A stretch of 64,000 nucleotides of DNA, from assembly GCA_022447205.1 (NCBI GenBank), contig JAKVBQ010000003.1, forward strand, positions 62,001 through 126,000, given 5' to 3'. This document shows positions 15,012-30,498 of the stretch, in pieces; position 1 is the first letter of the stretch, and each line of letters begins with the position of its first letter. Below the pieces are notes generated by a model. The model was not told where the DNA came from. It did not search any database and saw only the letters and a list, made by a program, of their open reading frames with translations. The stretch is from Phycisphaerales bacterium. GTDB lineage: Bacteria > Planctomycetota > Phycisphaerae > Phycisphaerales > SM1A02. The translations under genes were made by a program, and so were the position numbers.

Positions 15012-15195
15012 CTTGAGTGGTCTCCGTTGGGTGTTTCCTGCGTCAGGGCGGATTCGTCATCCGCTCACCCCCCCCTATGGAGCTGCTCGAGGAATGTGAC
15101 GGCAGACGTCGACGATCGCCGCGATTTCCCGGTCATCTGATTCACGTTTCGCCATTTCGCACCGTGCCTGGTCGAGGCAGCGGGTCGGTCCGGTG

Positions 15196-16632
15196 TCAGG
15201 TGCCCTGACGCGCCCTCTGCCGACCGGCTGCGCACCATGCGTTCCATCCGCCAGCCATGTTGATGACGGTATGCCCCTCTCTCTGGAGTGCGGAGCATGC
15301 ACTGGCGCTTCGGACGCCGCCGAGGCACTGCACCACCAGACCCTGCCCCTCCTCAGGGACTGGAATCAGGCTGCCATCGGCGAACAGCCTGGTATGCGGG
15401 AGGTTGCTGGCCCCCTCGAGATGTCCGGCATCGAACTCATCACCCCTGCGGACGTCGAGAATCTCGGGAACATCTCCTGCTTCGAATGCCTCGTGCAGGG
15501 TTTCGGCACTGATCTCCCTGATCGTGGCCAGGGTCTCTTGTGGTTGGCTGCCCCGCCAGGCCTCGAAGGCCTCGAGGCTGCACCAGGCGGTCAATCGGTC
15601 CAGGCCGATCCTGACCAATCCTCTCTTTACACGTTCCAGGTCAGCAGGCTTGCAGATCAGTGCAAGTTCTTGTTCAGGAAGGACATACGAACCAACCGTG
15701 GCCGAAAGGAATGCGCCGGTCTTCGACCAGATCGATCCGGGCAGGTGACCCGCTGCGAAGTCTGCCCAGGGCCTGAGGTCAATGACCTGACGGCCTCCAG
15801 ACGTAAGTTCCTGTGGAGAAACAGCTTCCGGATCGGGCAGCTGCCCGAGCCGGGGCACCCCATCCCGGTTCTGTTGCTTCATGCGAGCGAAGTAGAGGGG
15901 TGGGGCCGGCTGCCCGGTCAGCATGTTCGAGATGAAGGCATCCTCCTGCTCACTGAGCTTGAGGGCCTTGTTGAAACGTCGTTCGTACCCGACCGTCGAC
16001 TGTGGGATCGCGCCAAGGGCCTTCCCGCAGGCACTGCCTGCTCCATGGGCAGGCAGGATCTGCACGAAGTCCGGAAGTTCGAGGAAGGCACGGGCACTCT
16101 CGCCGAGATCCCGAGCTGCTGCCTCCATCACGCCTTCGACACCCGCTGCGGTCTCGAGCAGATCCGGTCGACCCAGGTCCCCGACGAAGACGAAGTCCCC
16201 ACTCAGGAGTGCCATGGGTTCATCCGCGCCTCCACCCAGATCGGTGACCAGGTAGCTCACGTGCTCGGGTGTGTGTCCGGGGGTGTGCAGGACGGTGAAC
16301 TTGATGCCACCGATCCGGAAGGTGTCCCCACCACGGTGTTCGACATGGTCATGGTCTGCGAGCCATCGTGAGCGCCAGTCATCGCCGCCTTCACCGGAGA
16401 CGTGGACGCGAGCGCCGGTCGCTTCGGCGAGTTCCCGCGCGCCCGAGAGGAAATCCGCGTGGATGTGGGTCTCCGCCACGTCGGTGATTCGAAGGTCGTG
16501 ACGTCGTGCCAGATCCAGATACTGATCGATGTCCCGTTCGGGGTCGATCACGATCGCCTCGCCGGTCTTCTGGCAACCGATCAACCAGGCCGCCTGGGCA
16601 AGGTCCTCGTCGAAGATCTGTCTCAGGAGCAT
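15196..16632 (-). CDS. MBL-fold hydrolase fused to two rhodanese domains (persulfide metabolism)
   Basis: Residues 1-250 form a metallo-beta-lactamase domain with THIHADFLSG, HTPGHTPEH and SGDFVFVGDLGRPD, the pattern of ETHE1/CstB-type persulfide dioxygenases in which the second metal site is reduced. LPAHGAGSACG follows, as in the family. A first rhodanese domain (about 275-350) has VIDLRPWADFAAGHLPGS, and its cysteine lies in an atypical loop, CKPADL. A second rhodanese domain (about 370-470) has ILDVRRGDEFDAGHLEGA and the standard active loop CLGGVRS. The enzyme likely oxidises glutathione- or protein-bound persulfides and moves sulfane sulfur in the cytoplasm. It is divergent from the AP/TPR/sulfotransferase gene. 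Confidence 0.88.
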   Translation of the reverse strand: MLLRQIFDEDLAQAAWLIGCQKTGEAIVIDPERDIDQYLDLARRHDLRITDVAETHIHADFLSGARELAEATGARVHVSGEGGDDWRSRWLADHDHVEHRGGDTFRIGGIKFTVLHTPGHTPEHVSYLVTDLGGGADEPMALLSGDFVFVGDLGRPDLLETAAGVEGVMEAAARDLGESARAFLELPDFVQILPAHGAGSACGKALGAIPQSTVGYERRFNKALKLSEQEDAFISNMLTGQPAPPLYFARMKQQNRDGVPRLGQLPDPEAVSPQELTSGGRQVIDLRPWADFAAGHLPGSIWSKTGAFLSATVGSYVLPEQELALICKPADLERVKRGLVRIGLDRLTAWCSLEAFEAWRGSQPQETLATIREISAETLHEAFEAGDVPEILDVRRGDEFDAGHLEGASNLPHTRLFADGSLIPVPEEGQGLVVQCLGGVRSASACSALQREGHTVINMAGGWNAWCAAGRQRARQGT

Positions 16633-16854
16633 GGTGCATCACCTCATGGAGAAGGTACGGACTGTCGGCGGGGCTCACGTGCGTGCGGCGATAATATGCG
16701 GTTTCCGGTGTCTGATCACCGACATGCCTCGTTGCGTCAACTGTACTCCATCATGACCCCGTGGATCCACTCCCGCGACCGGCTTCAAGCGAGCAAGGCT
16801 CCCTTCCTGCTGCATGTATGAAGGGGGCTTCTTCCTGAGTATGCTGGTCGGACC

Positions 16855-19812
16855 ATGAGCCCGACTGCAAACGACAGGAAAGTCCTGGTCATCGGCTGGG
16901 ATGCCGCCGACTGGCGCGTCATCGAGCCACTGATCGCCGAAGACAAGATGCCGAACCTCAAGCGGTTCATGGAAGACGGTGTTCACGGGAACAACTCGAC
17001 CCTGAACCCGGCGTTGAGTCCGATGCTCTGGACCTCGATCGCGACCGGCAAGCGGCCCTTCAAGCACGGCATCCACGGCTTTTCCGAACCCACTCCGGAC
17101 GGCAAGGGCGTCCGCCCGATCACCAACATCTCTCGAAGCACGAAGGCCGTCTGGAACATGCTTCAGCAGTGCGGCAAGCGCTCGATCGTGGTCGGCTGGT
17201 GGCCGTCGCATCCAGCGGAGCCGATCGACGGGGTCATGGTGAGCAACCACTACCAGCGTGCCGGGAAACTGCTCAACATCAAACCCGACGTCGAGGTCGG
17301 CAAGCCGAGATCAGGTCAGTTCGGCTGGGATCTCGAGCAGTGGCCGATGCAGCCGGGGACCGTGCATCCGGAGTCCATGGCGAAGAACCTGCAGGAGTTC
17401 AGGTTCCATCCATGGGAGATCGAGGCGGAACATGTCGCACCCTTCATTCCGAACTTCGCGAAGATCGACCAGAAGAAGGACAAGCGGTTGATCGGATTCT
17501 CGAAGACCCTCTCCGACACCGTCTCGATCCATGGTGCATCCACTGCCCTGATCCAGCTCGAGGACTGGGACCTGATGTGCATCTACTTCGACGGCATCGA
17601 CCACTTCTCGCATGGGTTCATGCGATTCCACCCTCCTCGTCAGGAGTGGATCTCCGAGGAGGACTTCGAGAACTACAAGGGTGTCGTCGAAGGCGGCTAC
17701 AGGTTCCATGACATGATGCTGGGTGCAACCCTGCAACTCGCTGGCGAGGACACGACGGTGATCCTGCTCAGCGACCACGGCTTCCACCCCGATCATCTTC
17801 GTCCCCAGTACATTCCGGTGGAGCCTGCGGGGCCGGCGATCGAGCACCGGAATCACGGAATCTTCCTGATGAAGGGTCCGGGCATCAAGAAGAACCATCG
17901 GATCCACGGTGCGGGCATCATGGATCTCTGTCCGACCGTCCTGACTCTCTTCGGCCTGCCGGTCGGAAGGGACATGGACGGCAAGCCGTTGGTCGATGCA
18001 TTCGAGGACGGTGTCGAGGTGGAGTCGATCGAATCCTGGGATGACGTCGAGGGTCAGTGCGGCATGCACGATCCCGATTCCCACATCGATCCCGTCGAGA
18101 GCGCGGAAGCCATGAGGCAACTCGTCGAGCTCGGCTACATCGAGGAGCCTGACGAGGACATCGACGTGGCGGTTCGGGAGACGGTTCGAGAACTCAAGTA
18201 CAACCTTGCACAGTCCTACATGGATGCCGGTGTCTTCAACGAGGCGATTCCGCTTCTCGAGGGAATCTGGAGTGAATTCCCGGGCGAGCACCGTTTCGGG
18301 ATCAACCTGATCAGCTGTCATCGCGCCGTAGAGGATCTGGATGGGCTGACCCGTTCCTCAACGACTCTCATGAAGAACATCGTGGAACAGAGGGATATCG
18401 CGCTGGATTCCCTCGAGGAACTCTCGACCGAAGCCGCCAGGTACGGGATCAGGTTGCCGACCGTGAAGGTCAACGAGGATGGTTCCCGGGAGCTTCTTCG
18501 GTCCGACGAGGGTGACATGATCGAAGGCAATGACTTCGAGGATCCTCCGAAGAAGCTGACCTTCAAGATCCGCAAGACGATGAGCTATCTCCAGCCCATG
18601 AACCATCTCTTCACCTGGGTGAGGCTTTCCCAGATGGTGCTGAGCGGGAATCAAAAGGATGCACTCCCGCTCCTGCGTCATATCGTCGAATCTGAAAGCG
18701 GCGTTCCGGAGCCCTACCTGCAGGCGGCCGCTTCCTTCATGAAGTTCGGACACCCTGAAGAGGCTGCAGCGGCGTATCGAAAGGCTCTCGAACTCGATTC
18801 GGAGAATGCCGTCGCGTTCTGCGGGCTCGCCAGCGCACTTCTCGAGATCGGGCAGGTGGAAGAAGCACTCGACCATGCACTGGAATCGACGGATCTCCTC
18901 TTCCACAATCCGAGGGCGCATCTCGTGATCGGTCGTTCCCTGATCAGGCTGGGCAACCTTGACATGGCGACCACCGCGCTCGGCCTGGCGTTGAAGCAGG
19001 CTTCCGCGTTCGCCGAGGCGCATGACGCCATGGCCGACCTGTTGGAAGACCACCTCGGCGACCCCGAAGGAGCGGAGCGGCATCGCGAAGACGCACGACA
19101 GGCCAGGGAATCGGTTCGAAGCAGATCGACCCTTGAGGATGAGACCGATCTCGATGCAGTGCAGGCCGGGATCGACCGTCGCAGGCAGGATCGCCTGCAG
19201 GCTGGTGGCAATCGGGAGGACTGGAGCGACGTGCCCCGCGACGAGATCATCACGATCGTCAGCGGCCTGCCTCGAAGCGGCACCTCGATGATGATGCAGA
19301 TGCTCCACCATGGCGGCATCGAACCCTTCGTGGACGGCGAGCGCGAGGCTGATCGGGACAACCCGAAGGGTTACTACGAGCACGAGAAGTCGACTCAGCT
19401 TGCCAGCGACAGTTCATGGATCCCCGAGGTCCGTGGTCGTTGCGTCAAGATCATGGCCCAGCTGCTGCCCATGCTTCCCACCGACCAGAAGTATCGCGTG
19501 GTCTTCATGGACCGTGATCTCCGGGAGATCGCGCGCAGCCAGAGGACCATGCTGGATCGACTCGGCAACAAGGGTGCTGACATCTCCGAAGCCAGGCTCA
19601 TGGCGACCCTCGACGCACAGGTCGCGGCCATAGAACTGTCGATGTCGGAGTCGAAGAACATCCAGTGCCTCCATCTCGACTACGGAGCGACCATCGCGGA
19701 TCCCCAGGGTGCGGCCCGGATGCTGGATGACTTCCTCGGGGGTTCGCTTGACGTTGGCGGCATGGTCGCCGCGGTCGACCCATCGCTTCGAAGGCAGAGC
19801 ATGAGCGGCTGA
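16855..19812 (+). CDS. Alkaline-phosphatase-superfamily enzyme fused to TPR repeats and a sulfotransferase domain
   Basis: This 985-residue protein joins three modules. Residues 1-390 are a type I phosphodiesterase/nucleotide-pyrophosphatase-like domain: metal-ligand Asp16 in IGWDAAD, likely nucleophile Ser55 in LSPMLWTSIATG, DGIDHFSH near 246-253, SDHGF near 305-309 and a late HGIF histidine, so it looks active. Residues about 430-770 hold TPR-like helix pairs (PEEAAAAYRKALELDSENA). Residues about 795-985 are a sulfotransferase domain with the PAPS loop SGLPRSGTSMM near 801 and the 3'-phosphate motif FMDRDLREIARSQ. There is no signal peptide or TM segment. It may transfer or remove phospho- or sulfo-groups on a glycan or lipid. 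It heads the cluster discussed in the findings. Confidence 0.85.
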   Translation: MSPTANDRKVLVIGWDAADWRVIEPLIAEDKMPNLKRFMEDGVHGNNSTLNPALSPMLWTSIATGKRPFKHGIHGFSEPTPDGKGVRPITNISRSTKAVWNMLQQCGKRSIVVGWWPSHPAEPIDGVMVSNHYQRAGKLLNIKPDVEVGKPRSGQFGWDLEQWPMQPGTVHPESMAKNLQEFRFHPWEIEAEHVAPFIPNFAKIDQKKDKRLIGFSKTLSDTVSIHGASTALIQLEDWDLMCIYFDGIDHFSHGFMRFHPPRQEWISEEDFENYKGVVEGGYRFHDMMLGATLQLAGEDTTVILLSDHGFHPDHLRPQYIPVEPAGPAIEHRNHGIFLMKGPGIKKNHRIHGAGIMDLCPTVLTLFGLPVGRDMDGKPLVDAFEDGVEVESIESWDDVEGQCGMHDPDSHIDPVESAEAMRQLVELGYIEEPDEDIDVAVRETVRELKYNLAQSYMDAGVFNEAIPLLEGIWSEFPGEHRFGINLISCHRAVEDLDGLTRSSTTLMKNIVEQRDIALDSLEELSTEAARYGIRLPTVKVNEDGSRELLRSDEGDMIEGNDFEDPPKKLTFKIRKTMSYLQPMNHLFTWVRLSQMVLSGNQKDALPLLRHIVESESGVPEPYLQAAASFMKFGHPEEAAAAYRKALELDSENAVAFCGLASALLEIGQVEEALDHALESTDLLFHNPRAHLVIGRSLIRLGNLDMATTALGLALKQASAFAEAHDAMADLLEDHLGDPEGAERHREDARQARESVRSRSTLEDETDLDAVQAGIDRRRQDRLQAGGNREDWSDVPRDEIITIVSGLPRSGTSMMMQMLHHGGIEPFVDGEREADRDNPKGYYEHEKSTQLASDSSWIPEVRGRCVKIMAQLLPMLPTDQKYRVVFMDRDLREIARSQRTMLDRLGNKGADISEARLMATLDAQVAAIELSMSESKNIQCLHLDYGATIADPQGAARMLDDFLGGSLDVGGMVAAVDPSLRRQSMSG

Positions 19813-19987
19813 TGACCGACTCACCGGGTCGATCACTGGACACGAGGGTGGTGGTTCCCTTTGGTCTCGGTGGGCCTGACCCTTCGGCCGGAGGGGTTCC
19901 GCGTCAGGGTCCGACAATCATGAACATCCGGTCATCATCATCATTTCAGCCGCAACAGGCACCGCGCATGCCTTATCGTGTCGGTCA

Positions 19988-20239
19988 ATGAGTGCCGTTG
20001 AACGCACATCCGAAGAGATGACGACCTGGATGCAGGATCGTGTTGCGCGAGAGCTCGAGTGCCCCGCCTCGGATGTCGACATCGACAAGCCTTTCGATCA
20101 GCTCGGTCTCGACTCTCTCGCGATCCTGATCGCGACCGGTGAGCTTGCGGAATGGCTGGGCATCGAACTCGAGGCAGCCACTCTCTTCGAGCATTCGACC
20201 ATTCGTCTGCTTGCGAAGCACATCGCTCAACGAGGCTGA
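19988..20239 (+). CDS. Acyl carrier protein
   Basis: The 83-residue protein has the phosphopantetheine attachment motif LGLDSL with Ser43, and the three-helix pattern of carrier proteins (WMQDRVARELECPASDVDIDKPF before the motif, then a helix around IATGELAEWLGIELEAATLF). It would be modified by a phosphopantetheinyl transferase and carry an acyl chain as a thioester. Next to it are a fatty-acyl-AMP ligase, a P450 and two GNATs but no FAS gene, so it is more likely a dedicated carrier for this cluster than the housekeeping AcpP. Its last 13 bases overlap the convergent GNAT gene. Confidence 0.9.
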   Translation: MSAVERTSEEMTTWMQDRVARELECPASDVDIDKPFDQLGLDSLAILIATGELAEWLGIELEAATLFEHSTIRLLAKHIAQRG

Positions 20240-21177
20240 GCCTCGCGTCGATCGTTCTTGCCCAGCTCGCGTTCGTAGCAAATCGCACTGTTGATCAGTC
20301 GGGCCTTGATCCTCTTGGACACGTTCCTCGTGTCAGGCTGTCTCCTGCCGGCCTCGTACTGCTGCACCAGGGCTCCGGCCTTGAATGCTCGCACGCCGTT
20401 GTCGATGAACAGACGCAGCTGCAATCCGGAGAGTCGATGTCTGGGATGGATTGCGAGTGCATGGACCTTGAGGGTGGTGTCACGCAACTTGCAGAGATGC
20501 AGGCCGATCACTCGTCCGTTCCGGATCGCAACCCTCGAGTGATTCGCATCGATCAAGCTGTCCAGTCCCGCAATGGCCCTGATGATGGTGTCCCGGTTCT
20601 GTTCCGCGTCCCCTCCGATGAATGCCGCCCATGCCCTGGCGATCTCCATGGCCATGTGTTCCTGGAGGGGGACGATCTCGATGTCCTCGGGGAACTTCAG
20701 ATTGCGTTCGATCCGTTCGAGCGTGTCCTTCCATGACTCGATGGTCTCTTCCAGATCCATCTCGTAGGTGTCGAAGGTCTCTCCCGGGATGAAGCCGTGT
20801 TCCTCGAGTTTCCGGCCCAGCGGAGCATCCGGTTGCAGGTGTTCCGTCGTCCTGAGTCTTCGCGCACCCCACTCCACGGTGCTTTCGATCACTGGTTGGA
20901 GGAGCAGATCGGCAAGATCCGTCTCCAGCCAGCTCGAAACGATCGAGAGGTGCATGCCCAGGCAGGCGAGTTCCGATTCGACGTAGCCCTTGGTGACCAC
21001 GATCGAGCCGACCACCGGCGCGAACTCCTCGTTCCCATCCACGGCGACCAGACTCCAGCCGCTTTCAGCCATGTACCGCATGTTCGGGTTCGTCATGGCG
21101 AGCGTGGCCCGGTCCTCCGGGCGAGCAGGCTCGATGCGGATGCGATCGAGGTCCGGTTGTCTGGTTGCATCGGTCAT
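20227..21177 (-). CDS. Double-GNAT acyltransferase-like protein (copy 1)
   Basis: The 316-residue protein looks like two GNAT folds in tandem. The N-terminal half (about 1-140) runs from IRIEPARPEDRATLA to a SGWSLVAVD/VVGSIVVTKGYVE beta hairpin and an ELACLGMHLSIV strand. The C-terminal half (about 165-290) has DIEIVPLQEHMAMEIARAWA, a VAIRNGRVIGLHLCKL hairpin and a LKVHALAIHPRHRLSGLQLRLFI segment like the acyl-CoA-binding motif A. It would move an acyl group from CoA or the neighbouring ACP to an amine. The gene is convergent with the ACP (13-base overlap) and its start is only 20-56 bases from the divergent AP-like/TPR gene. Confidence 0.65.
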   Translation of the reverse strand: MTDATRQPDLDRIRIEPARPEDRATLAMTNPNMRYMAESGWSLVAVDGNEEFAPVVGSIVVTKGYVESELACLGMHLSIVSSWLETDLADLLLQPVIESTVEWGARRLRTTEHLQPDAPLGRKLEEHGFIPGETFDTYEMDLEETIESWKDTLERIERNLKFPEDIEIVPLQEHMAMEIARAWAAFIGGDAEQNRDTIIRAIAGLDSLIDANHSRVAIRNGRVIGLHLCKLRDTTLKVHALAIHPRHRLSGLQLRLFIDNGVRAFKAGALVQQYEAGRRQPDTRNVSKRIKARLINSAICYERELGKNDRREAQPR

Positions 21178-21233
21178 CCACTGGTTAGGCTACACGGATG
21201 CCACCGTCCGGTCGTGATGACACCCTTGATTCC

Positions 21234-22754
21234 ATGGTCCTGCTCGTTCTCGAGGGCATGGGACCGATGTGGATCGACCGGCTCCGTTCGTGTCCCGGGA
21301 CTCGACTCGGTCGCCTCCTCGGATCCGGGTCATCATGCTCGGTGAAGATCCCGACCGGACCGGGCAGGAATGCGGTCGCCACGACGCTTGCGACCGGTGA
21401 CACCCCATCGAAGCACGTCGTGATCGGCCGGCGGGAGCCTGATCGGATCTCCATGGAGGTTCGCAACATCGATGCGCGTTCCTGGAGGCTCGAACCGTTC
21501 TGGTCCGAAGTCGTTCGGTCCCGCAGAACCACAGCCGTCGTCGGATGGCCGGTACTCGATCCGGTCACCGAATGGACCGTGTCTGGTGACGATCCGTCGA
21601 TCGGACAGACCCTGGTCGGCACCGATGCCTTGACCAGTCGCCAGGATCCGGCCGATGCCTGGTTGCTTCCTCCGATGTCGGTGCACCCCGAAGCAACACG
21701 ACCCCTGGTCCGGTCGAACCGTGTTCACGTCGATGAACGGGAGGACCTGACTCCCCTGCGTGCGTTCGGGGAGTCGATCGTCAACGTGAGCAGGGCCCTC
21801 CTCCTGGAGACGGAACCGGACCTCCTCGTGAGTTGGATTCCGTTTCCGGAGGAGTTCGATCGTGAGCGTGATCCCGCCGAGGTGGACTTCCTCGATCCAC
21901 TGCTTGAGTCGATTGGCGACCGACCGCTTGCGCTGCTCGCCCTGCCTCGGCTTCCCGCCCAACCCAACATGCTGCTTGCCCGACCGCCGGCACGCCTCTT
22001 CCTCCATGGATGCTCCCTTGGGCCGGATGAGGGATCTTCCATGTGGGACGTCGATCTCGCCGGCCTTGTCTGCCGACTCCTCGGACTCGACTTCAAGCCG
22101 ACCAGTCGACCGGTCGTCGATCCGGACCTCTTCCTCGAGCGAGCAAGGCAGCGTGCGGCCAGGTTCCTTGCATCGGGTTTCAACCCCTTCCGTACCCAGG
22201 CACGACGACGCGTCTACGCCTCGAGCATGTCGTACCGTGATGTCATCATCGGACTCGATCAGTTCGAGCGCGGAGATCTGGGCGCTGCCCGTGATTTCCT
22301 GACCGAGGTCGTTCAGTCGACGGCGAGCGAGATCGGCATCGTCTACCTGGCCCGCGCATTGATCGCATCCGGGAAACAGGATCACGTGGAACGTCTTGTC
22401 GAGTCACTGCCCTCGGGAAGCGATCTCCGACGTTCCGTCGCCGCCGCACACGCCGTCATGAAGGATGAGCCGACCATCGTCTCCGAGCTCCTGACGCAGC
22501 CTCCCACCTCCTCCGTGTGTCTCGGGTTCATGCTTGAGAGCCTGCTTCGAATCGGAGCAACCGATCGAGCATGTGCACTGCTGCATGGATCCGAGCGGGG
22601 GCAGCTCCTGGGATTGTCCTACAGGGACCGTCGCATCGGGATGATCTGCGCCCGGCGGTCGGGGAAGGCTCCGCTCTGCGCGGTTCTTGCCAGGCTCGTC
22701 CTGATGATGCGTCCGGACAGGGCCCGCCTTCGACGATTCCTTCGCCCCGGGTGA
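21234..22754 (+). CDS. Degenerate alkaline-phosphatase-superfamily protein (pseudoenzyme, copy 2)
   Basis: This protein parallels the enzyme domain at 16855: LLVLEGMGPMW replaces VLVIGWDAADW, ATTLATGDTPSKHVVIG parallels WTSIATGKRPFKHGIHG, and WDVDLAGLVCRLLGL parallels IMDLCPTVLTLFGL. The metal and catalytic residues are gone: the first Asp is Glu, no Ser/Thr nucleophile aligns, the D-x-x-D-H segment is SWIPFPEEFDRE, and SDHG is replaced by ALPRL. The C-terminal 170 residues are alpha-helical and TPR-like (RDVIIGLDQFERGDLGAARDFLTEV). I place the start at ATG 21234; an upstream ATG at 21198 is possible but leaves only 20 bases to the divergent GNAT gene. It may be a regulatory or scaffold partner. 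Confidence 0.65.
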   Translation: MVLLVLEGMGPMWIDRLRSCPGTRLGRLLGSGSSCSVKIPTGPGRNAVATTLATGDTPSKHVVIGRREPDRISMEVRNIDARSWRLEPFWSEVVRSRRTTAVVGWPVLDPVTEWTVSGDDPSIGQTLVGTDALTSRQDPADAWLLPPMSVHPEATRPLVRSNRVHVDEREDLTPLRAFGESIVNVSRALLLETEPDLLVSWIPFPEEFDRERDPAEVDFLDPLLESIGDRPLALLALPRLPAQPNMLLARPPARLFLHGCSLGPDEGSSMWDVDLAGLVCRLLGLDFKPTSRPVVDPDLFLERARQRAARFLASGFNPFRTQARRRVYASSMSYRDVIIGLDQFERGDLGAARDFLTEVVQSTASEIGIVYLARALIASGKQDHVERLVESLPSGSDLRRSVAAAHAVMKDEPTIVSELLTQPPTSSVCLGFMLESLLRIGATDRACALLHGSERGQLLGLSYRDRRIGMICARRSGKAPLCAVLARLVLMMRPDRARLRRFLRPG

Positions 22755-22771
22755 TCCCTGTCAGGATGACT

Positions 22772-24502
22772 TCAGATGACCGGGAGGGTTCCCTCTCGCC
22801 ATGAGGTGGCGGCCTCACCTCGACGCACCTTGCCACTCGTGGTCTTCGGGATCGAGCCTGACTTGAGGAGCACGCACTCCGAGAGTGCGACGGCATGATC
22901 CCTCGATATCGCGGAACGCACGGCTGCGGTGATCGACTCCTTCAGCACCCGCAGGGCCGCCTCGTCCTTTCTGGTCGCGCGCATCTGTTCCCTACTCAGT
23001 TCCACCAGCAACACGACCCCCTCTCCGCCATGGGCCATGGCGTCAGGGACGGCAAAGGCCGCGCATCCACCGCTGTCGACGGCCTCATGCGCTTCTCCTG
23101 CAGTGCGTTCCAGGTCCTGGGGGTGATGGTTCGATCCACCGACGATGATCAGGTCCTTGAGTCGACCTGCGATGACCAGTTCTCCATCGATGAAGCCACC
23201 CAGATCGCCCGTTCGCAACCATGGGCCGTTTCTTCCGTCGATCGACTCCGGGAATCTGTCCTCTTCCTCTCCACCTCGATAGCCGTGCGTGACACTCGGA
23301 CCTCGGACGCAGATCTCGCCAATCCCCCCTTCCTCATCCATGAAGCCGTCGTCTTCATCGAGTATCGCGACTGCGTGCCCCGGTATCGGCGCGCCGCAGG
23401 TGGTGATCGCCACGGCATCCTCCTGATCGGCCGGGCATCGCTCCAGTCGGTTTTCGGCAAGAGCCTTTGATGCGATGTGCTCCAGACCGAGTCGTGCACC
23501 CGGTCTCCGTGTCGAGACAACCAGGGTCGATTCCGCGAGTCCGTAGCAGGGTTGCATCGCCGAAACGTCGAACCCGCACGGCCCGAATGCCTCGATGAAC
23601 CGTTCGATCGTCTCCGGACGAACCGCTTCCGCACCGTTCATGGCGCTCTTCCAGCATCGGAGGTCGAGTTCGGCCCGATCTTCCGGAGTCGTGCGTTCAA
23701 CGCACAGGTTGAACGCGAAGTTGGGGCCTCCTGAATGTTCCGAACGTGTCCTGGAGATCGCCCGAAGCCAGCGCACCGGCCGCATGACGAACTCCTCCGG
23801 TGCCATCAGGTTGGCGGTGATGCCGTTGACGAGGCTGGTCATGACCAGGCCGATCAACCCCATGTCATGGAACAGGGGCAGCCAGCACACGGTACCGACC
23901 GACCCTTCGCGGTAGAAGAGGGAACTCATGGCGTCGAGGTTCGCGACGAGATTGCCGTGGGTCACCCTGACCGCGCGTGGATCGCTCGTCGAACCGGAGG
24001 TGTACTGGAACATCACCTCCCGGTCCGGATCGATTCCGGGAGGCTCATCGAGGTCATCTGTTCCGTATGCATCCTGGTCGGTGGCGATGAACTGAAGCGA
24101 CTTCAGCGAGGGGTCCCCGATCTCGAGGCAGCTCTCCACCGTCGACGTGCTGGCAAGTGCGCGGACCGGACCGGCATCCTTGATGATCGATTCGAGTCGA
24201 CCGGATCGGTCATTGGCCCTTGGAGCGTGGGCGGTCACCGCGATCGCGCCGGCCCGGATGCACGCAAGGTAGGCCACGACGTAATCGATGCCGTTTCGTT
24301 CCGGTATGAGCACGGGGCGCCCCACCGCCTCCGCACGGACGAGTTCGTCCGCGATCGCACCGGTCCGGTGCCACAGTTCACCATAGGACAGCGTCGATGT
24401 CGGCGTGCCCTCCGGACCAAGCCGGGTGAGAGCGACCGTGTCGGGGCGTTCCACGGCGTGTCGAAGGAGTCTTCCGGGTATCGAATCGATGGGTTCGCGC
24501 AT
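22772..24502 (-). CDS. Fatty-acyl-AMP ligase (FAAL-type adenylating enzyme)
   Basis: The 576-residue protein has the adenylation motifs in order: A3 QYTSGSTSDPRAVRVTHGN, the FAAL block VCWLPLFHDMGLIG, a GGPNFAFNLC segment, A5 CYGLAEST, A7 WLRTGDLG, A8 GRLKDLIIVGG followed by NHHPQDLE, and the C-terminal catalytic lysine in TSGKVRRGE. WLPLFHDMGLIG and NHHPQDLE mark the FAAL subgroup, which activates fatty acids as acyl-AMP and loads them on an ACP rather than CoA. The ATG at 24502 (MREPIDSIPG) is preferred over the 27-codon longer frame. It is divergent from the P450 across 100 bases and ends 17 bases from the convergent AP-like gene. Confidence 0.92.
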   Translation of the reverse strand: MREPIDSIPGRLLRHAVERPDTVALTRLGPEGTPTSTLSYGELWHRTGAIADELVRAEAVGRPVLIPERNGIDYVVAYLACIRAGAIAVTAHAPRANDRSGRLESIIKDAGPVRALASTSTVESCLEIGDPSLKSLQFIATDQDAYGTDDLDEPPGIDPDREVMFQYTSGSTSDPRAVRVTHGNLVANLDAMSSLFYREGSVGTVCWLPLFHDMGLIGLVMTSLVNGITANLMAPEEFVMRPVRWLRAISRTRSEHSGGPNFAFNLCVERTTPEDRAELDLRCWKSAMNGAEAVRPETIERFIEAFGPCGFDVSAMQPCYGLAESTLVVSTRRPGARLGLEHIASKALAENRLERCPADQEDAVAITTCGAPIPGHAVAILDEDDGFMDEEGGIGEICVRGPSVTHGYRGGEEEDRFPESIDGRNGPWLRTGDLGGFIDGELVIAGRLKDLIIVGGSNHHPQDLERTAGEAHEAVDSGGCAAFAVPDAMAHGGEGVVLLVELSREQMRATRKDEAALRVLKESITAAVRSAISRDHAVALSECVLLKSGSIPKTTSGKVRRGEAATSWREGTLPVI

Positions 24503-24602
24503 GGTGTCACCGGAACTTCGGATGGCTTCAGGGGAGACCCCGTGCTGCCCTGCACGGCCATACGTGGGTATCGACGGCGTCACTCTATATCATCCACACA
24601 AC
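24503..24602. promoter_or_regulatory. Divergent promoter region between FAAL and P450 genes
   Basis: One hundred bases separate two divergent starts, so both promoters must lie here or in the genes. Two small inverted repeats stand out: GGGG-AGA-CCCC at 24531-24541 and CGTGC-TGCCCT-GCACG at 24541-24556. An AT-rich CTATATCAT stretch lies just before the P450 start. One or both repeats could be an operator controlling the two genes together; no regulator gene is seen nearby. Confidence 0.35.
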
Positions 24603-25895
24603 ATGGATGATTCAGGCGAAGTCCCCCAGACCGAGAGTGCGATCGACCGACTGGAACGGCTCCGTTCCGAATCTGCCGGACATCGCGTGGTCTCCATTCC
24701 ACTGCTCAAGGGTTCAGGTCATCTCGTCGTCGATCACCTCCTCGTCCAGGAGATCTTCAAGTCACAGGATTTCGTCCGCCCTCCCTTCTTCAGGAAGGCT
24801 TTCGGCGATGGCCTTCTTCTCTCCGATGGAGAACGCTGGGCGCATTCCAGGAAGGTGATCCAGCCGGAGCTCTCACCGACCGCCGTCCGCTCGATGCAGG
24901 ACGTCATCGACGACTGCATCAAGGAGCTCCAGACGGACTGGTCGCGAGCATCAGAAGAGGATCGATCGGTCCCCCTGGTCGAGGACATCGCCTCCTGTGT
25001 CCTGCGCATCACGGTGCGCGTTCTCTTCGGTGTGGATCTCGGTGCCCGGGATCCCCGTGCACTCTCCGTGGTCCGACTGACTGCAGCATCCAACGAACTT
25101 GCCGGCCTCGGTGTCTTCGACCCTCGTGCAATGGTCGGTGGCCGCCTCATCAACGCGCTCCAGAAGGAACGCACCGACGTCGAATCACTTGCAGCCGAAC
25201 TGATCGCCTCTCGTCGTGATGCCCCGGATGCCGGAGCATGTCCGGTGGATCTCCTGGATCACCTGCTCGACCCCGCCTTCATCGAGGCTCCGGTGGCTGA
25301 TGGTGGTTGCCCTGTCGGTCACAAGGGCCTCATCGAGGAGATGGTCCTCCTCCTTCTGGCAAGTGTCGAGACCACGACGGCATCCACGTCGAACACCCTG
25401 CAACTGCTGGCCGATCATCCTGCATGCACCGAAAGGTTGAGGGCGGATCTACCGGATGGAACCTGGGTCCAGGCCTGCTTCCGGGAATCACTCCGCCTGC
25501 GTCCCCCGGTCTGGTTCAACGGTCGCGTCGCTCTCGAACGGTTCGAGTTGTCCAGCGGCGACACCATCGAGTCCGGGGATCACGTCTACGTCTGCCCCTA
25601 TCTCATCCACCGCGATCCCTTGCTCTGGGAGGAACCCGATCGTTTCCTTCCAGAACGCTTCATCGACGGGGTGGTTCGCGAGGGAGCCTCGTTCATGCCG
25701 TTCGGACTCGGTCGCCATTACTGCGTCGGATCAGGGCTTGCCACCGCTATCTCCACGAGTCTGGTCTCCAGCATCCTCGCGAATCACGATGTCTCGATCG
25801 AGGTGTCCTCCGATCACGAACCGGGCGGCGGTTTCCTGCTCGGGCCTTCCCTCGGATCACGTGCTCGGATCACTCCGACGTCCCGTCCGGGCTGA
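24603..25895 (+). CDS. Cytochrome P450
   Basis: The 430-residue soluble protein has the K-helix ExxR motif (Glu295-Arg298 in CFRESLRLRP), the I-helix ASVETTTAS pattern and the heme-binding loop FGLGRHYCVG with the axial Cys374. RFLPERFIDG precedes the loop, as in fatty-acid and class I bacterial P450s. It needs external ferredoxin and reductase partners, which are not in the window. Next to an FAAL and an ACP, it could hydroxylate an acyl chain held on the ACP, as known for some P450s acting on carrier-bound substrates; that is inference. The ATG at 24603 was chosen because the longer frame from 24405 would overlap the divergent FAAL. Its last 26 bases overlap the convergent GNAT gene. Confidence 0.93.
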   Translation: MDDSGEVPQTESAIDRLERLRSESAGHRVVSIPLLKGSGHLVVDHLLVQEIFKSQDFVRPPFFRKAFGDGLLLSDGERWAHSRKVIQPELSPTAVRSMQDVIDDCIKELQTDWSRASEEDRSVPLVEDIASCVLRITVRVLFGVDLGARDPRALSVVRLTAASNELAGLGVFDPRAMVGGRLINALQKERTDVESLAAELIASRRDAPDAGACPVDLLDHLLDPAFIEAPVADGGCPVGHKGLIEEMVLLLLASVETTTASTSNTLQLLADHPACTERLRADLPDGTWVQACFRESLRLRPPVWFNGRVALERFELSSGDTIESGDHVYVCPYLIHRDPLLWEEPDRFLPERFIDGVVREGASFMPFGLGRHYCVGSGLATAISTSLVSSILANHDVSIEVSSDHEPGGGFLLGPSLGSRARITPTSRPG

Positions 25896-26727
25896 ACGAC
25901 TTCGCCCACCATGCACTGCGACGGAAGCATGTGCCTCCGAGGTCTGCGATGACCGCAAGATCGAAGCTGGTGTCAGGGTTGCCGGGACCCCGCATCATGA
26001 TTCGCTCGATGTCGGAGGTGAGAGGATCGGCCAGTGCCTCGAGGAGCAGCGTCGTTCCTCGTTCGATCGAGCACGTCTCTGGTGCCCAGAGCGTGCTGGC
26101 AAGTGCGGAGTCACTTCGTTCCCGGAACAGCAGCAGTCCGATCGGCTCGACTTCCTCCGGGTTCTTGAAGTACAGGTGGCACGAACCGGGATCGCCTCGG
26201 ATCGCCTTTTGCACGGTGCCCGGGCGGATCCCATGCTCCGCTCGAAGATGGATCAGCTTCGGCAGGTCTTCGATTCCAGCCGCCCTGACGATGCCGGTCT
26301 TTGGCTCTCCATCTTCCGTCCGTCGAGCCGCCAGCTCCGCCAGTGTCGATCGTTCGATGCTCCAGAGCTCGAATCCCCTCACCGGCAGGAATCCGAGATC
26401 ACGTTTTCGGTCTGCGGGGGGGCCTTCGACCGCACTCGGTCCTGACAGCACGATCCCTGCCGCACCCCAGTCCCGACCGAGTTCGGCAAGCCGTTCGATC
26501 AGCTGGCGTCGGGTCTCATCGCGTTCCGAACCGGTGGTCGCGACCTTGATGGCGAGGTAACCGGGACTCGATCGGCCTGGAAGCAACTCGATCGTCCCGG
26601 CCCCGACCAGGCCTTCCGAGCCAGTTGCCGTGAGCAGGAGCCGGCCCTTTCCGTCGAATGCGCCCGGAAGCAGCTCCTGCACAGCCGGGAGATCGACTGC
26701 TTCAGCCTGTGCGATCCGCAGGGTCAT
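25870..26727 (-). CDS. Double-GNAT acyltransferase-like protein (copy 2)
   Basis: This 285-residue protein has the same plan as the one at 20227: an N-terminal GNAT-like half (MTLRIAQAEAVDLPAVQELLPGAF, GLVGAGTIELLPG hairpin, YLAIKVATTGSERDETRRQLIERL with a motif-A-like segment) and a second half from about residue 145 (TGIVRAAGIEDLPKLIHLRAEHG, EPIGLLLFRER hairpin). The first half looks the better preserved for acyl-CoA binding. It is convergent with the P450 (26-base overlap) and divergent from an AP-like/TPR gene 86 bases away, which repeats the arrangement of copy 1. Function is probably acyl transfer or recognition. Confidence 0.6.
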   Translation of the reverse strand: MTLRIAQAEAVDLPAVQELLPGAFDGKGRLLLTATGSEGLVGAGTIELLPGRSSPGYLAIKVATTGSERDETRRQLIERLAELGRDWGAAGIVLSGPSAVEGPPADRKRDLGFLPVRGFELWSIERSTLAELAARRTEDGEPKTGIVRAAGIEDLPKLIHLRAEHGIRPGTVQKAIRGDPGSCHLYFKNPEEVEPIGLLLFRERSDSALASTLWAPETCSIERGTTLLLEALADPLTSDIERIMMRGPGNPDTSFDLAVIADLGGTCFRRSAWWAKSFSPDGTSE

Positions 26728-26813
26728 CCTTGGAGGATAGCAGCCGGAATCGTCGATGATGACCGATTGGAGTCAGGTTCCTGCTTCAACACCCTCCTGC
26801 GTGGAGTGCTTTC

Positions 26814-28508
26814 GTGTCTCCTGTTGCCGTCATCAATTTCGACAGGTCACTTGCCGAGCCATCCTCGGAAGTGCTTGATTCGTTCAGGCAGGTCAGGCGT
26901 GTTCTCCTTGCCGGGAACAACGGAGATTCGGCCGTGGCGCGTGCCGCGATCATCGCTTCGGGCCTTCCGACTTCGGTGAGCGGAGTCGACCTGCCGCAGG
27001 TCCTTGTCCCGGAGCCGCTCCATGTCCGTCCACGGCGCGCTTCTGATTGTGCCTTCCCCTGGGTCTGGGACCTTGTGGTCGACGCGGGGATGCAGGCAGG
27101 CATCGTGGGGTGGCCGGGCCTTTCATCCGTCGAAGGATCCTCGGCTCGCATGGTCTCCATCGATGCGCTGAAGCAACAGGGACGAGGCTCCGATCACTGG
27201 CCGTTGGCGGCACCCTTCGTCACGCCTTCCAATTGTCGTGACGCCGTCGCAGCGGCACGCATCGCGACCGATGATCTCGATGTATCCCCCTATCGTGCGA
27301 TGCTGGACGTGCTGCCCACGAAGCAGATGGTGCATCGAGCGCGGGGTGCCATCGCAACCTGCCTGAGCGGCCTCGGCGCGATGGAGGTTCTTGGTGCCGA
27401 CGGGCTCGACCTTGCGATGTTCAACCTCCAGCTACCCCCCCTCTCACCGGCCCTGAAACCACTTGTCACCTGTCTCATCGATCTTTCGGCACGACGGATC
27501 CTCGATGTCACGGGCCCGGACACCACCTTGCTGGTCGTGTCCTCTTTTCGTGGTTCGAATCGTCTGCTCCTTGCAACGAGGGACACGGACGACGACGGTG
27601 AAACGACTCGTCAGGGCACCTTGCTCGACATCACCCCGACGATACTCGGGTGTCTCGGGATCACCCCGCCGGAGGACCTTGCTGGCAGTGATCAGGGTGT
27701 CGTTGGTGCGGGAGTCACGCCTCGGTTCGACATCGCCCCCGACAGTGATGATCAAGGCATGGATCTTGATCACCTGATCGAACGGCTTCTCGTGGGTGAT
27801 GCTGACGGGATGACTGCTCGAAGGCGGGATGCGCTCCTTCGATTCACGTTGACGACGCTGCATGCCAAGCGGATCAAGGCCTATCGAGCCCTGGACTTCG
27901 GTCTCGTTCGCAAATGGACCGAGCGGCTTCTTCGATTCACACCCTCGGCAAGGAACATGTGGGAGCTGGCCTTTGCGTGCAATCGACTCGGTGATCACGA
28001 AGGTGCGGCTGCGGCCTCGCGCGAACTGCTCGACAAGCACCCCGGCTCTTCGGAAGCCGTGCTCTCTGCGGCACTCCTTGATCAGGGACGGAACAACACC
28101 TCCGAATTGAAGGTCATCGTGGAATCGGTCGACCCCACCGGACTGAGGAGCCCATCCATTTCAGGAGTCTGGGGTCGACTGGCCATCCGAGTCGGGAACA
28201 TGGAAGAGGGGATGGCTGCCCTGATCACCCTGGTGGAACGAGGGGTTGCCCTCCCCATCGATCGGTTTGCCCTCGTTCGGGCCTGCATGCAGTTGGGTGA
28301 ACACGAGAAGGCCGCGAAGTACATCGGTGGGCTCGGCAGCGGCCGACGGGGTCTCTTGAAATGGCGCATCCTCAGGGCCCGGGTTCTCTTGAAGGTCGGT
28401 CGCAAGGACGAAGCGCTCCAGATTGCCGAGAGCATCCTGGTGTCCCACCCAATGGAGAAGAACGCCGTTGAGATTCGAGACCTTGTGAATCGTTCAAAAA
28501 TTGATTGA
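26814..28508 (+). CDS. Degenerate alkaline-phosphatase-superfamily protein with TPR region (pseudoenzyme, copy 3)
   Basis: The 564-residue protein again follows the layout of the 16855 protein: VAVINFDRS at the start (Asp10 kept), AGIVGWPGLSS parallel to SIVVGWWPSHP, LLVVSSFRGSNRLLLA where the active form has ILLSDHGF, and LLDITPTILGCLGI parallel to MDLCPTVLTLFGL. The SDHG metal site and nucleophile are missing, so catalysis is unlikely. Residues about 350-560 are TPR-like helix pairs (ARNMWELAFACNRLGDHEGAAAASRELLDKHPGS). The start is a GTG at 26814 with TGGAG seven bases before it. It could be a scaffold or substrate-binding partner of the active paralogue. Confidence 0.65.
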   Translation: MSPVAVINFDRSLAEPSSEVLDSFRQVRRVLLAGNNGDSAVARAAIIASGLPTSVSGVDLPQVLVPEPLHVRPRRASDCAFPWVWDLVVDAGMQAGIVGWPGLSSVEGSSARMVSIDALKQQGRGSDHWPLAAPFVTPSNCRDAVAAARIATDDLDVSPYRAMLDVLPTKQMVHRARGAIATCLSGLGAMEVLGADGLDLAMFNLQLPPLSPALKPLVTCLIDLSARRILDVTGPDTTLLVVSSFRGSNRLLLATRDTDDDGETTRQGTLLDITPTILGCLGITPPEDLAGSDQGVVGAGVTPRFDIAPDSDDQGMDLDHLIERLLVGDADGMTARRRDALLRFTLTTLHAKRIKAYRALDFGLVRKWTERLLRFTPSARNMWELAFACNRLGDHEGAAAASRELLDKHPGSSEAVLSAALLDQGRNNTSELKVIVESVDPTGLRSPSISGVWGRLAIRVGNMEEGMAALITLVERGVALPIDRFALVRACMQLGEHEKAAKYIGGLGSGRRGLLKWRILRARVLLKVGRKDEALQIAESILVSHPMEKNAVEIRDLVNRSKID

Positions 28509-28738
28509 CCGAGCCAGGGATCTTGTATTATCGGACAATTTTCGCGCCCAGATCGACTCACCTCGCACGGCTCGCTGCGGAAATGTGGAAAAGACATAAG
28601 CTTGCTTTGGGTCGTGATTTCCACGACGATGTCGAGGCGTTTTAGATGGCGTTTCAGGACGATTTCGCCACATCTTGGATGATGAAAGATGCTCAGGACC
28701 ACTCAGGAGGTGGTCCCGGGTTGGTTGGAAGAAGAAGC

Positions 28739-29548
28739 ATGTCAGATCAAGATCTCTCCGGAGCTCGCTTCGAGCGATATCTGGCTCTTGCGGCACTGCC
28801 CGTCGTGGGCCTTGCTGGCTCTGCTTGTGCCGACATCATCCACTACGGCGGAGAGACGATTCGGATTGACCGCTTCAGCGATGCAGGTGGCCAGTATGGC
28901 GAGTCCCTGCTTGGTCTTCCGTCGAGCTTCGATGCGGATGCTGCACTTGGACGGAATCAGTCGATGACCGCTGCCATGTCCAGTCAGTTCGCCTTTGCAA
29001 GCGCAGCGATGCGTGTCGGCGTGTTCTCCAATGGTGGTGCCGAAGGTCTTGGTTTCGCGATCTGTCCCGATGGCAGTTTCGGCCAGCTTGGTGGACTTGC
29101 CGGGAGCATGTTCGGCAGTGATTTCGCTGCAGGATGCCAGTTCCTTCATTTCCTCGAATCCGGATCCGAGATCGACGGGCAGCTTGAATTCGCGGCAAAC
29201 GGTGCCGTTGCCATGTCGGTTTCCGCCATGGCGACCGTCTTTGGTGACGTGGTCGCTGAAGAGGCGTTTTCCGCTGGTGAATGGGGCGTTCTTGGCTCGG
29301 AGGATGAAGCACGGGGCTTCGTGGCCTGGCAGCTCGATACCACCGATGGCACGGGCTACGGCTGGATGGATGTCGCCTGGGATGGCGACGTGCTGTCCAT
29401 CTTCGACTGGGCGTTCTCGACCGATGGCTCGATCGCCGCGGGCCAGACGAGTGAGATGACCTCGGTTCCCGGGGGTGCCGGACTGGCCGCTCTCGCTCTT
29501 GGTGCCGCCGGATTCCGTCGGCGTCGCAATCGGCCCCAGCAGGCCTGA
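28739..29548 (+). CDS. Secreted protein with PEP-CTERM-like sorting tail (tandem copy 1)
   Basis: The ~269-residue protein has an N-terminal hydrophobic segment (RYLALAALPVVGLAGSACA) acting as an export signal. A HYGGETIRIDR strand follows, then a beta-rich body with the repeat-family core EARGFVAWQ ... GYGWMDVAWDGDVLSIFDWAF, and a C-terminal sorting signal: VPGGAGLAALALGAAG and FRRRRNR. The tail has the tripartite layout of PEP-CTERM/GlyGly-CTERM proteins, which are cut by an exosortase-like or rhombosortase-like enzyme. I chose the ATG at 28739, preceded by GGAAGAAG, instead of the earlier one at 28646. It is the first of three paralogues. Confidence 0.8.
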   Translation: MSDQDLSGARFERYLALAALPVVGLAGSACADIIHYGGETIRIDRFSDAGGQYGESLLGLPSSFDADAALGRNQSMTAAMSSQFAFASAAMRVGVFSNGGAEGLGFAICPDGSFGQLGGLAGSMFGSDFAAGCQFLHFLESGSEIDGQLEFAANGAVAMSVSAMATVFGDVVAEEAFSAGEWGVLGSEDEARGFVAWQLDTTDGTGYGWMDVAWDGDVLSIFDWAFSTDGSIAAGQTSEMTSVPGGAGLAALALGAAGFRRRRNRPQQA

Positions 29549-29724
29549 CCCACCAGCACATTCGATCCATGGTTTGATCCACTGCGGTTTTCTCAAAACA
29601 GCAGGGTTATTTAACTGTTTGGGTCGTCATTACACCGGTGCGGACGCACTGGTCCCTTGTGTAAGCTGGCTGGAGCGCGAGCAATCGGCTTTTGCTCGAC
29701 CCAGCCTGAAGGAGAAAGACCGCC

Positions 29725-30465: not shown

Positions 30466-30498
30466 AGCGACACGGGCAACACTTCGATTGATCTATTG

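Follow-up and report, generated by a model that had tools for sequence, protein, structure and literature searches.

What could be made or modified by a gene cluster that unites an AP-superfamily/TPR protein fused to a sulfotransferase, two further AP-like/TPR proteins, a stand-alone acyl carrier protein (ACP), a fatty acyl-AMP ligase (FAAL), a cytochrome P450, and two GNAT acyltransferases? Such a cluster is located in the window, i.e. the whole stretch of 64,000 nucleotides analysed here, from a bacterium of the order Phycisphaerales. A sequence-only reading of this DNA knew of no described pathway with this set of genes, and open-access full-text searches found none.

Organization of the locus

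The coordinates and strands assigned to the eight open reading frames (ORFs) in that reading agree with the ORF check, as do the overlaps of 13 bases between ACP and GNAT1 (20227-20239) and of 26 bases between P450 and GNAT2 (25870-25895), and the gap of 17 bases between the second AP gene (pAP1) and FAAL (22754/22772). Three PEP-CTERM-like genes, PC1-PC3 (28646-31460), which had been missed, lie directly 3' of the eight-gene cluster. The features are as follows:

16855-19812, + strand: fusion of an AP-superfamily (type I phosphodiesterase) domain, TPR, and sulfotransferase (ORF, Pfam, catalytic residues, 63% identical orthologue in genome G001)
19988-20239, + strand: ACP, stand-alone, with LGLDSL motif (ORF, Pfam)
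20227-21177, - strand: GNAT1, probable tandem GNAT acyltransferase (sequence, AlphaFold model)
21198-22754, + strand: pAP1, AP/TPR protein lacking the catalytic residues (hhalign, residue check)
22772-24583, likely start 24502, - strand: probable FAAL (Pfam, NCBIfam, PDB matches)
24603-25895, + strand: cytochrome P450; the ORF reaches 24405, likely start 24603 (Pfam)
25870-26727, - strand: GNAT2, putative divergent tandem-GNAT paralogue (profile comparison)
26814-28508, + strand: pAP2, AP/TPR protein lacking the catalytic residues (hhalign, residue check)
28646-29548, + strand: PC1, secreted-looking PEP-CTERM-like protein, no core lysine
29725-30465, + strand: PC2, PEP-CTERM-like paralogue, 6 core lysines
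30726-31460, + strand: PC3, PEP-CTERM-like paralogue, 6 core lysines

The starts of FAAL (24502) and P450 (24603) are internal to their ORFs and were judged by eye. GNAT1 and pAP1 are divergent, with 20 bases separating their starts. A polysaccharide synthesis protein and a GDP-mannose dehydratase are encoded 18-24 kb downstream in the window.

Predicted fatty acid activation and the tandem GNATs

The ACP matches PF00550 (58.2 bits) and the P450 matches PF00067 (167.1 bits; both Pfam). The AMP-binding protein matches PF00501 (196.7 bits, Pfam) and carries a DIP2-like C-terminal domain; its high-scoring NCBIfam models are fatty-acid--AMP ligases, and in PDB it is matched best by FAALs and FAAL domains. 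By sequence it is closest to FAALs, not to CoA ligases. As in the FAAL-ACP loading pairs of polyketide and lipopeptide pathways, a FAAL homologous to 7r7g and FadD23/FadD32 is accompanied by a stand-alone ACP; unlike in those pathways, neither PKS nor NRPS was found among the eight proteins (Pfam).

GNAT1 scores under its Pfam cut-off (16.1 vs 20.7). Its AlphaFold model, of moderate confidence (mean pLDDT 71), superimposes on the tandem GNAT 7q3a (Foldseek, E 3.4e-13, TM 0.65/0.61), and the protein is accordingly modelled as two GNAT folds in one chain. For GNAT2, the Pfam search gave no match and the AlphaFold model is of low confidence (pLDDT 35); an end-to-end alignment to the GNAT1-family profile (hhalign, probability 75%, E 2.5e-5) points to a tandem-GNAT paralogue, an assignment made by profile only. 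Neither protein has an NCBIfam match at E 0.01, the models for N-acyl amino acid synthases and exosortase-associated acyltransferases included. The motif R/Q-x-x-G-x-G/A, which we take to mark the CoA pyrophosphate loop, is absent at the N-domain position from GNAT1, GNAT2, the GNATs of genera g33 and g394, and those of f4, G051, and G383; it is present in the GNATs of G173, G028, G142, G147, G213, G730, G110, and G056. A single-sequence search with P0003 gave matches in 18 of 301 Phycisphaerales genomes. A profile search gave matches in 30 of 400 genomes, and the same profile in 19 of 392 genomes of a phylum sample, mostly partial matches of single-GNAT length from outside the order.

AP/TPR proteins with and without catalytic residues

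The protein encoded at 16855-19812 matches PF01663 (93.5 bits), TPR (47.4 bits), and the sulfotransferase family PF13469 (38.5 bits; all Pfam). It keeps all of D16, S55, D249, H253, D307, H308, and H331, which we take, from NPP structures, to be the seven catalytic and metal positions of the AP domain; its residues 1-515 gave no match against PDB at E 0.01 (phmmer). Membership of pAP1 and pAP2 in the AP/TPR family, as proposed earlier, is borne out (hhalign, E 5e-11 and 9.7e-15). Of the three proteins, only the first keeps the catalytic residues; the residue check did not find them in pAP1 and pAP2, which look catalytically dead. This speaks against the suggested link to phospho/sulfo chemistry for two of the three AP domains, from which the residues it needs are missing.

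This division extends beyond the window. GNAT-paired AP proteins are dead by residue check in 17 of 18 cases, 7 of the 17 stemming from one genus, whereas the main APs of the two locus sets described below are intact in 41 of 41, a contrast that is partly selected, since intact queries were used to find these. Dead APs also occur without a GNAT, as in six second AP copies that follow main APs. By eye, the AP/TPR partner is apparently devoid of a signal peptide.

Linkage of AP/TPR genes to PEP-CTERM-like genes

The AP/TPR genes of the order are physically tied to PEP-CTERM-like genes, an association that is well supported. In a first set of 20 AP loci, a PEP-CTERM-like gene lies upstream in 11 (profile), 8-248 bases away; without L147, L163, L165, and L166, which had been picked with a known PEP-CTERM-like match nearby, the count is 9 of 16. 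To test this, a second set was assembled from the 20 loci next by E-value (G133:C1 skipped), with 21 AP/TPR genes. A same-strand upstream gene of the PC family or with a PEP-CTERM tail is present for 20 of the 21 (16 by profile within 300 bases, three by tail only, one with a sulfotransferase in between), including a fragment of 63 residues where the contig stops (L168) and a case where the nearest PC-profile match has no basic tail (L184); the 21st gene lies at a contig end. Stop/start overlaps of PC and AP genes (ATGA, GTGA) occur in G213 and G730. Among AP relatives outside the order, none of 25 has a PEP-CTERM-like gene upstream in the flank read (at most 1.5 kb), which is visible in 21, the AP frame reaching the upstream edge in L195, L203, L213, and L216; six small ORFs there fit the tail pattern, none directly upstream on the same strand.

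The second partner varies. Where seen, it is either a PAPS-type sulfotransferase or a tandem GNAT: a sulfotransferase is fused or encoded within the fetched stretch at 28 of 40 AP loci and was not found in the stretch read at 12 of 40, and an AP gene adjoins the GNAT gene in 15 of the 19 strong GNAT loci read. The related GNAT in four f4 genomes has no adjacent AP. Of six AP-sulfotransferase orthologues from g33 and g28, five are without an adjacent PC-type gene and the sixth is truncated at the end of its contig. No feature of the system is as constant as the PEP-CTERM-like partner genes.

A correlation between PEP-CTERM/exosortase systems and exopolysaccharide genes has been reported (PMC1569441). 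Decoration of polysaccharides or glycolipids would be an alternative: the sulfotransferase and the GNAT might modify the exopolysaccharide or lipid precursors that PEP-CTERM proteins become attached to, with the AP/TPR protein acting on a phospho-intermediate. This explanation, with which the polysaccharide-related genes farther downstream in the window would agree, is rated as unlikely: no glycosyltransferase was found among the eight proteins (Pfam), and the AP/TPR genes abut the PEP-CTERM-like gene itself.

Recurrence of the locus in related genomes

The syntenic locus of G001, a genome from the same genus, consists only of the AP-sulfotransferase gene (63% identical), a pAP2 counterpart directly after it (31% identical), and one PEP-CTERM-like gene, the PC1 counterpart, in the same place (65% identical); ACP, GNAT1, pAP1, FAAL, P450, and GNAT2 are all missing there, and PC2 and PC3 have no separate copies. 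The long-standing co-evolution of all eight genes, which had been proposed from the overlapping or closely spaced gene ends, is thus rejected. On another contig, G001 encodes a FAAL/P450/ACP/P450 set next to a thioesterase and a leader-peptide-like gene (nitrile-hydratase-leader-like); none of the GNATs and APs of the window had a match within the 16 kb read there, up to the contig end. Since these genes stand without GNAT and AP, the FAAL arm can serve something else. A RiPP reading, prompted by the leader-like gene, was dropped, as no precursor was recognised by eye among the small ORFs outside the main genes (15001-34000).

It would be conceivable from G001, with its six inner genes missing and its FAAL set elsewhere, that an AP-sulfotransferase/PEP-CTERM module and an unrelated FAAL lipid pathway came together by chance in the genome of the window. 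This is considered improbable, as five of the six inner genes (FAAL, P450, ACP, GNAT, and AP-like/TPR) recur together in two other genera, g33 and g394, mostly by a PEP-CTERM-like gene and in another gene order. The arrangement is PC-FAAL-P450-P450-ACP-GNAT-pAP in G033, G091, G133, and G674; in G760, the 15.7 kb read contains FAAL, P450s, ACP, GNAT, and pseudo-AP and lacks a PC-type gene. In G173, from another family, a different FAAL-ACP fusion is found near GNAT, AP, and a PEP-CTERM protein. Together, these loci suggest that genes for fatty acid activation and transfer joined an older PEP-CTERM-associated gene set.

Proposed mechanism

We favour, at a probability of roughly 0.35, a function of the locus as a modification station for the adjacent secreted PEP-CTERM-like surface proteins, with one arm for sulfation and an added one for fatty acylation. 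Support is good for the association of the genes; the chemistry is inferred. FAAL would adenylate a fatty acid and load it on the ACP, where the P450 would oxidise the bound chain. The tandem GNAT would then move the chain to an amine, most likely of lysines in the neighbouring PEP-CTERM-like proteins, in the cytoplasm and prior to export, while the dead AP/TPR protein might serve as an adaptor that holds the client. The AP-sulfotransferase may play the corresponding part for sulfate. In the last step, the C-terminal tail would be cleaved and the product anchored by exosortases, whose genes lie elsewhere in the genome.

The main competitor, itself a tentative but serious proposal, is a small molecule: the FAAL/ACP/P450/GNAT arm would join an oxidised fatty acid to a free amine, yielding an N-acyl amino acid or aminolipid for export to the biofilm matrix, and the PEP-CTERM-like neighbours would be co-regulated matrix proteins instead of substrates. 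An N-acyl-amino-acid pathway has already been linked to PEP-CTERM genes, the FAAL/P450/ACP sets of G001 and G048 show no GNAT or AP match in the stretches read, and the Foldseek matches include tandem GNATs acting on small molecules (e.g. MshD) and a complex with N-myristoyl histidine. However, the GNAT is still paired with AP/TPR and PEP-CTERM-like genes in G028, G142, G147, G213, and G730, for which neither FAAL nor ACP nor P450 was detected, the same AP/TPR and PEP-CTERM-like pair accompanies a sulfotransferase at other loci, and neither GNAT matches an NCBIfam model at E 0.01. N-acyl amino acid synthase clusters (FeeM-type, e.g. the stieleriacine cluster of Stieleria maiorica, likewise a planctomycete) also combine an acyltransferase proposed to use acyl-ACP with a PEP-CTERM gene. 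The window differs in its GNAT, which is tandem-domain and unmatched in NCBIfam, in having FAAL and P450, and in its additional AP/TPR pseudo-enzymes and sulfotransferase fusion; moreover, the AP/TPR to PEP-CTERM-like link holds without fatty acid genes.

Known systems resemble each of the two proposed arms. Selidamides and goadvionins are GNAT-acylated ribosomal lipopeptides, and a GNAT moving a fatty acyl group to a ribosomal product would follow equal logic, although the proposed substrate here is a protein of about 250 residues and no RiPP precursor was recognised. RaxX is sulfated by RaxST in the cytoplasm before export; the sulfotransferase likewise acts on a peptide prior to secretion, whereas the one described here is fused to AP/TPR and linked to PEP-CTERM-like proteins. 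In PEP-CTERM/EpsH (exosortase) sorting with the TPR protein PrsT, TPR proteins have been suggested as adaptors (PMC1569441). Common to that system are C-terminal tails, exosortases in the same genomes, and the suggested TPR adaptors; in contrast, the TPR partner here has an AP domain, apparently no signal peptide (by eye), and is often paired with a sulfotransferase or GNAT.

A more far-reaching version, put forward as speculative, is a so far undescribed, modular platform for bacterial protein modification in which AP/TPR adaptors, active or dead, would hold adjacent PEP-CTERM-like proteins as clients and dock interchangeable transferases (sulfotransferase, tandem GNAT), with oxidised fatty acids being placed, in this lineage, onto surface-protein lysines before export. 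If true, this would constitute a lipoprotein route unrelated to Lgt/Lnt, in which the FAAL-ACP-P450 arm feeds the GNAT. The attachment targets of exosortases for PEP-CTERM proteins and the roles of the associated acyl and sulfate genes are poorly known; a near-constant AP/TPR neighbour with two alternative transferases provides a concrete partner set for a class of surface proteins that is abundant in planctomycetes. That a dead-enzyme family keeps its genomic place suggests an adaptor role.

Tails and lysines of the PEP-CTERM-like proteins

PC1-PC3 look secreted and appear to end in a hydrophobic stretch and a basic C-terminus (by eye and alignment). TIGR02595 (cut-off 16 bits) was not reported for them at E up to 1; they match MYXO-CTERM below that model's cut-off, and PC2 is a marginal match to the LPXTG anchor model (16.0 vs 15.9). 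The homologue of PC1-PC3 in G033 scores 20.8 for TIGR02595, whose cut-off is passed by 8 of 10 AP-linked relatives. Exosortase genes were found in 16 of 16 genomes tested.

Mean lysine content of PC proteins is 3.3% at FAAL loci (n 8), 1.0% at loci with GNAT only (n 9), and 0.7% at other AP loci (n 34), means that omit L113:11872-12666 (G674) and the genes of G091 and G173 and keep one other with an over-long start. On recount, the omitted proteins have 6 (G674), 7 (G091), and 4 (G173) core lysines. PC2 and PC3 have six each, PC1 and its G001 counterpart zero, and PC-like proteins elsewhere in the same genomes 0-8. Against the latter, the enrichment has a two-sided P of 0.049 with PC1 and 0.011 without it in a post hoc comparison of one family, and P values are not strict, given the common ancestry of loci within an order. 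Tyrosine sulfation is not clearly supported, because the tyrosine content of AP(-sulfotransferase)-linked and GNAT-linked PC proteins shows no difference (4.55% vs 4.54%); in FAAL-linked PC proteins it is lower (2.65%).

Genes of the locus

The eight genes that the sequence-only reading had described as a possible acyl/sulfo-modification cluster are correct in their open reading frames, strands and overlaps on an ORF check, and domain scans uphold the assignments of the first protein (alkaline-phosphatase superfamily (AP), TPR and sulfotransferase parts), ACP, FAAL and P450. The second and third AP-like proteins are likewise placed in the AP/TPR family. GNAT1 is too divergent in sequence to reach the Pfam cut-off, but its structure model (seven homologues used, pLDDT 71) matches tandem GNAT structures (best 7q3a, E 3.4e-13); the GNAT1-family profile aligns over the length of GNAT2 (E 2.5e-5). 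Three genes for secreted-looking proteins of one family (PC1-PC3) follow.

16855-28508: AP-TPR-sulfotransferase (+, 16855-19812), ACP (+), GNAT1 (-), pseudo-AP1 (+), FAAL (-), P450 (+), GNAT2 (-), pseudo-AP2 (+)
28646-29548, +: PC1, secreted-looking, directly downstream of the eight genes
29725-30465, +: PC2, secreted-looking, same family as PC1 and PC3
30726-31460, +: PC3, secreted-looking, same family as PC1 and PC2

The tails of PC1-PC3 have the form 'VPGAGGLAALAMGAAGLRRRRK'. Their scores lie below the curated PEP-CTERM cut-off; since a homologue beside the FAAL gene of the relative G033 exceeds it (20.8 vs 16 bits), they are termed PEP-CTERM-like. Some of the compared genomes are rich in such tails (between 14 and 149 matches per genome, E up to 1, ten genomes scanned), so that one nearby tail gene alone says little. 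Elsewhere in the window (G000:C23:62001-126000 in the genome set), positions 42425-45673 encode a large flagellar cap protein of the FliD type (1082 aa), shortly after a ParB gene (40670-41896).

Pairing of PEP-CTERM-like and AP/TPR genes

The neighbourhood is real and conserved, and its common thread is a PEP-CTERM-like protein with an AP/TPR partner, accompanied by different transferases. This pairing makes the locus of greater interest than first described, but on other grounds. Of 151 genomes searched from the order, 59 contain a match to the window AP-TPR-sulfotransferase, some of them via the sulfotransferase part alone. In a first set of AP loci, 11/20 have a same-strand PC-family gene 8-248 bases upstream (9/16 by profile without the four picked knowing of a nearby PC hit). 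One further locus (L165) has a PEP-CTERM-like tail protein at this position, and in G001, a genome of the same genus as the window, such a gene lies downstream. The next 20 loci by E-value (G133:C1 skipped), with 21 AP genes, served as a test and were fetched after the PC profile had been built. A same-strand upstream PC-family or PEP-CTERM-tailed gene is present for 20 of the 21, 16 by the PC profile at less than 300 bases and three by the tail only (L170, L172, L176); in L182 a sulfotransferase gene sits between the PC gene and the AP, and at the 21st gene (L183) the sequence ends 338 bases upstream. That such a gene stands directly upstream in almost all cases of the test set hardly looks coincidental, though the loci share ancestry, and the gene association is strong. 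AP relatives outside the order have no such upstream gene in any of 25 loci within flanks of up to 1.5 kb, the upstream side being visible except in four.

Haft 2006 (PMC1569441) considered TPR domains to be possible adaptors in PEP-CTERM systems. In open-access full text on PEP-CTERM/exosortase with sulfotransferase, alkaline phosphatase plus tetratricopeptide, GNAT or Phycisphaera, and on the FAAL/GNAT/P450/ACP set, no description of the arrangement came up, PMC11631085 and PMC12078418 included.

Partner transferases and the AP domain

In 28/40 loci of the two sets together, the AP/TPR protein carries a fused sulfotransferase or one lies within the fetched stretch; in the GNAT loci, the neighbour of the AP/TPR gene is a tandem GNAT. 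Seven residues (D16, S55, D249, H253, D307, H308 and H331 of the 16855-19812 protein), which by homology to nucleotide pyrophosphatases we take to be catalytic, are all present in 41/41 main APs of the two sets and in the window AP-sulfotransferase. In contrast, they are broken in 17/18 GNAT-paired APs, seven of the 17 coming from genus g33; the exception is G173. This difference suggests that AP chemistry accompanies the sulfotransferase and that the GNAT needs the scaffold only. It calls for caution, however, since the 41 were retrieved with intact queries and since second copies of the AP, lying behind a main AP in six cases, are broken too without a GNAT.

Of 400 genomes searched from the order, 30 match the GNAT1-family profile, and in 20 the E-value is below 1e-40. 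The eight named relatives from a GNAT scan are MAGs; seven bear the label Phycisphaerales, Phycisphaerae or Phycisphaera, and one is labelled Planctomycetia. Nineteen of the 20 strong loci were read (G047 left out); 15 of them have an AP/TPR gene next to the GNAT, and the four without it belong to one family, f4. A PC-type gene is present in 11 of the 15, five of which had trained the PC profile; three of the 15 reach a contig end before any such gene, and none occurs within the 15.7 kb read at the GNAT-AP locus of G760. The order PC, FAAL, P450, P450, ACP, GNAT, pseudo-AP is common to G033, G091, G133 and G674 (genera g33 and g394), and G173, of another family, combines GNAT, intact AP/TPR, a PEP-CTERM protein, a FAAL-ACP fusion and P450. 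Five further genomes (G028, G142, G147, G213, G730) carry a PC, AP/TPR and GNAT module; FAAL, ACP and P450 genes were not found in these stretches. The PC stop codon overlaps the AP start codon in G213 and G730 (ATGA, GTGA), suggesting translational coupling.

Other GNAT arrangements were also seen. In f4 genomes (L056, L060), related tandem GNATs without AP adjoin VCBS-repeat-like proteins with a common C-terminal 'DSVKTPF' element (by eye), another GNAT pairing with a possibly secreted protein. Outside the order, G383 (L120:8467-14805) has two dead-AP and tandem-GNAT pairs in succession and several PEP-CTERM-tailed genes in the same stretch. In G056 (L118:9790-11534), 17 bases separate a PEP-CTERM-tailed gene from the weakly matching GNAT behind it, with no AP.

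A possible acylation of surface proteins

FAALs adenylate fatty acids and hand them to ACPs, and certain P450s oxidise substrates bound to a carrier; GNATs transfer acyl groups onto amines, and sulfotransferases use PAPS. As the enzymes of the locus appear to lack signal peptides, both synthesis and transfer of the acyl group would take place in the cytoplasm. Two observations hint at a protein as acceptor: the GNAT keeps the AP/TPR and PC genes where the fatty-acid genes are absent, and lysine is abundant in the PC proteins of loci that bear a FAAL (3.3%, n 8, vs 1.0% in GNAT-only loci, n 9, and 0.7% in other AP loci, n 34). The latter hint is weak and post hoc. Core lysines are absent from PC1 and its G001 counterpart, number six each in PC2 and PC3, and range from 0 to 8 in PC-like proteins elsewhere in the same genomes (P 0.049 with PC1 and 0.011 without; 0.065 and 0.014 with one locus protein fewer). 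The canonical CoA loop, kept in the GNATs of FAAL-free relatives and G173, is absent from those of the window and of genera g33 and g394, which would fit an ACP-bound donor, though GNATs of f4, G051 and G383 also lack it with no FAAL found nearby. The main rival, and the nearest precedent, is the N-acyl-amino-acid pathway, already tied to PEP-CTERM genes; at E 0.01, no NCBIfam model matches either window GNAT. As a hypothesis, the fatty-acylation of surface proteins has a chance of about one in three.

History of the window locus

G001 is collinear with the window on both flanks and has, in order, a rhodanese gene, AP-sulfotransferase (63% identity), pseudo-AP2 (31%), one PC gene (65% to PC1) and an oxidoreductase gene. 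ACP, GNAT1, pseudo-AP1, FAAL, P450 and GNAT2 have no counterpart at this locus, nor have PC2 and PC3 separate copies. The window thus combines a sulfotransferase-type locus with the acyl module, which in g33 and g394 is arranged differently; the AP-sulfotransferase of g33 lies on a different contig from this module.

In G001, a FAAL, P450, ACP, P450 set occupies another contig, where a thioesterase and a nitrile-hydratase-leader-like gene accompany it, and no GNAT1 relative was found in the genome; it follows that the FAAL arm can serve other ends. The small leader-like gene (L021:15035-15346; PF02979, 34.1 bits) encodes a Cys-containing end stretch after a GG motif, and the set may represent a lipidated ribosomal peptide cluster. 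In G048 (L023), FAAL, ACP-thioesterase and P450 lie near methyltransferase-like and FkbH-like proteins (by eye), probably a separate lipid natural-product cluster.
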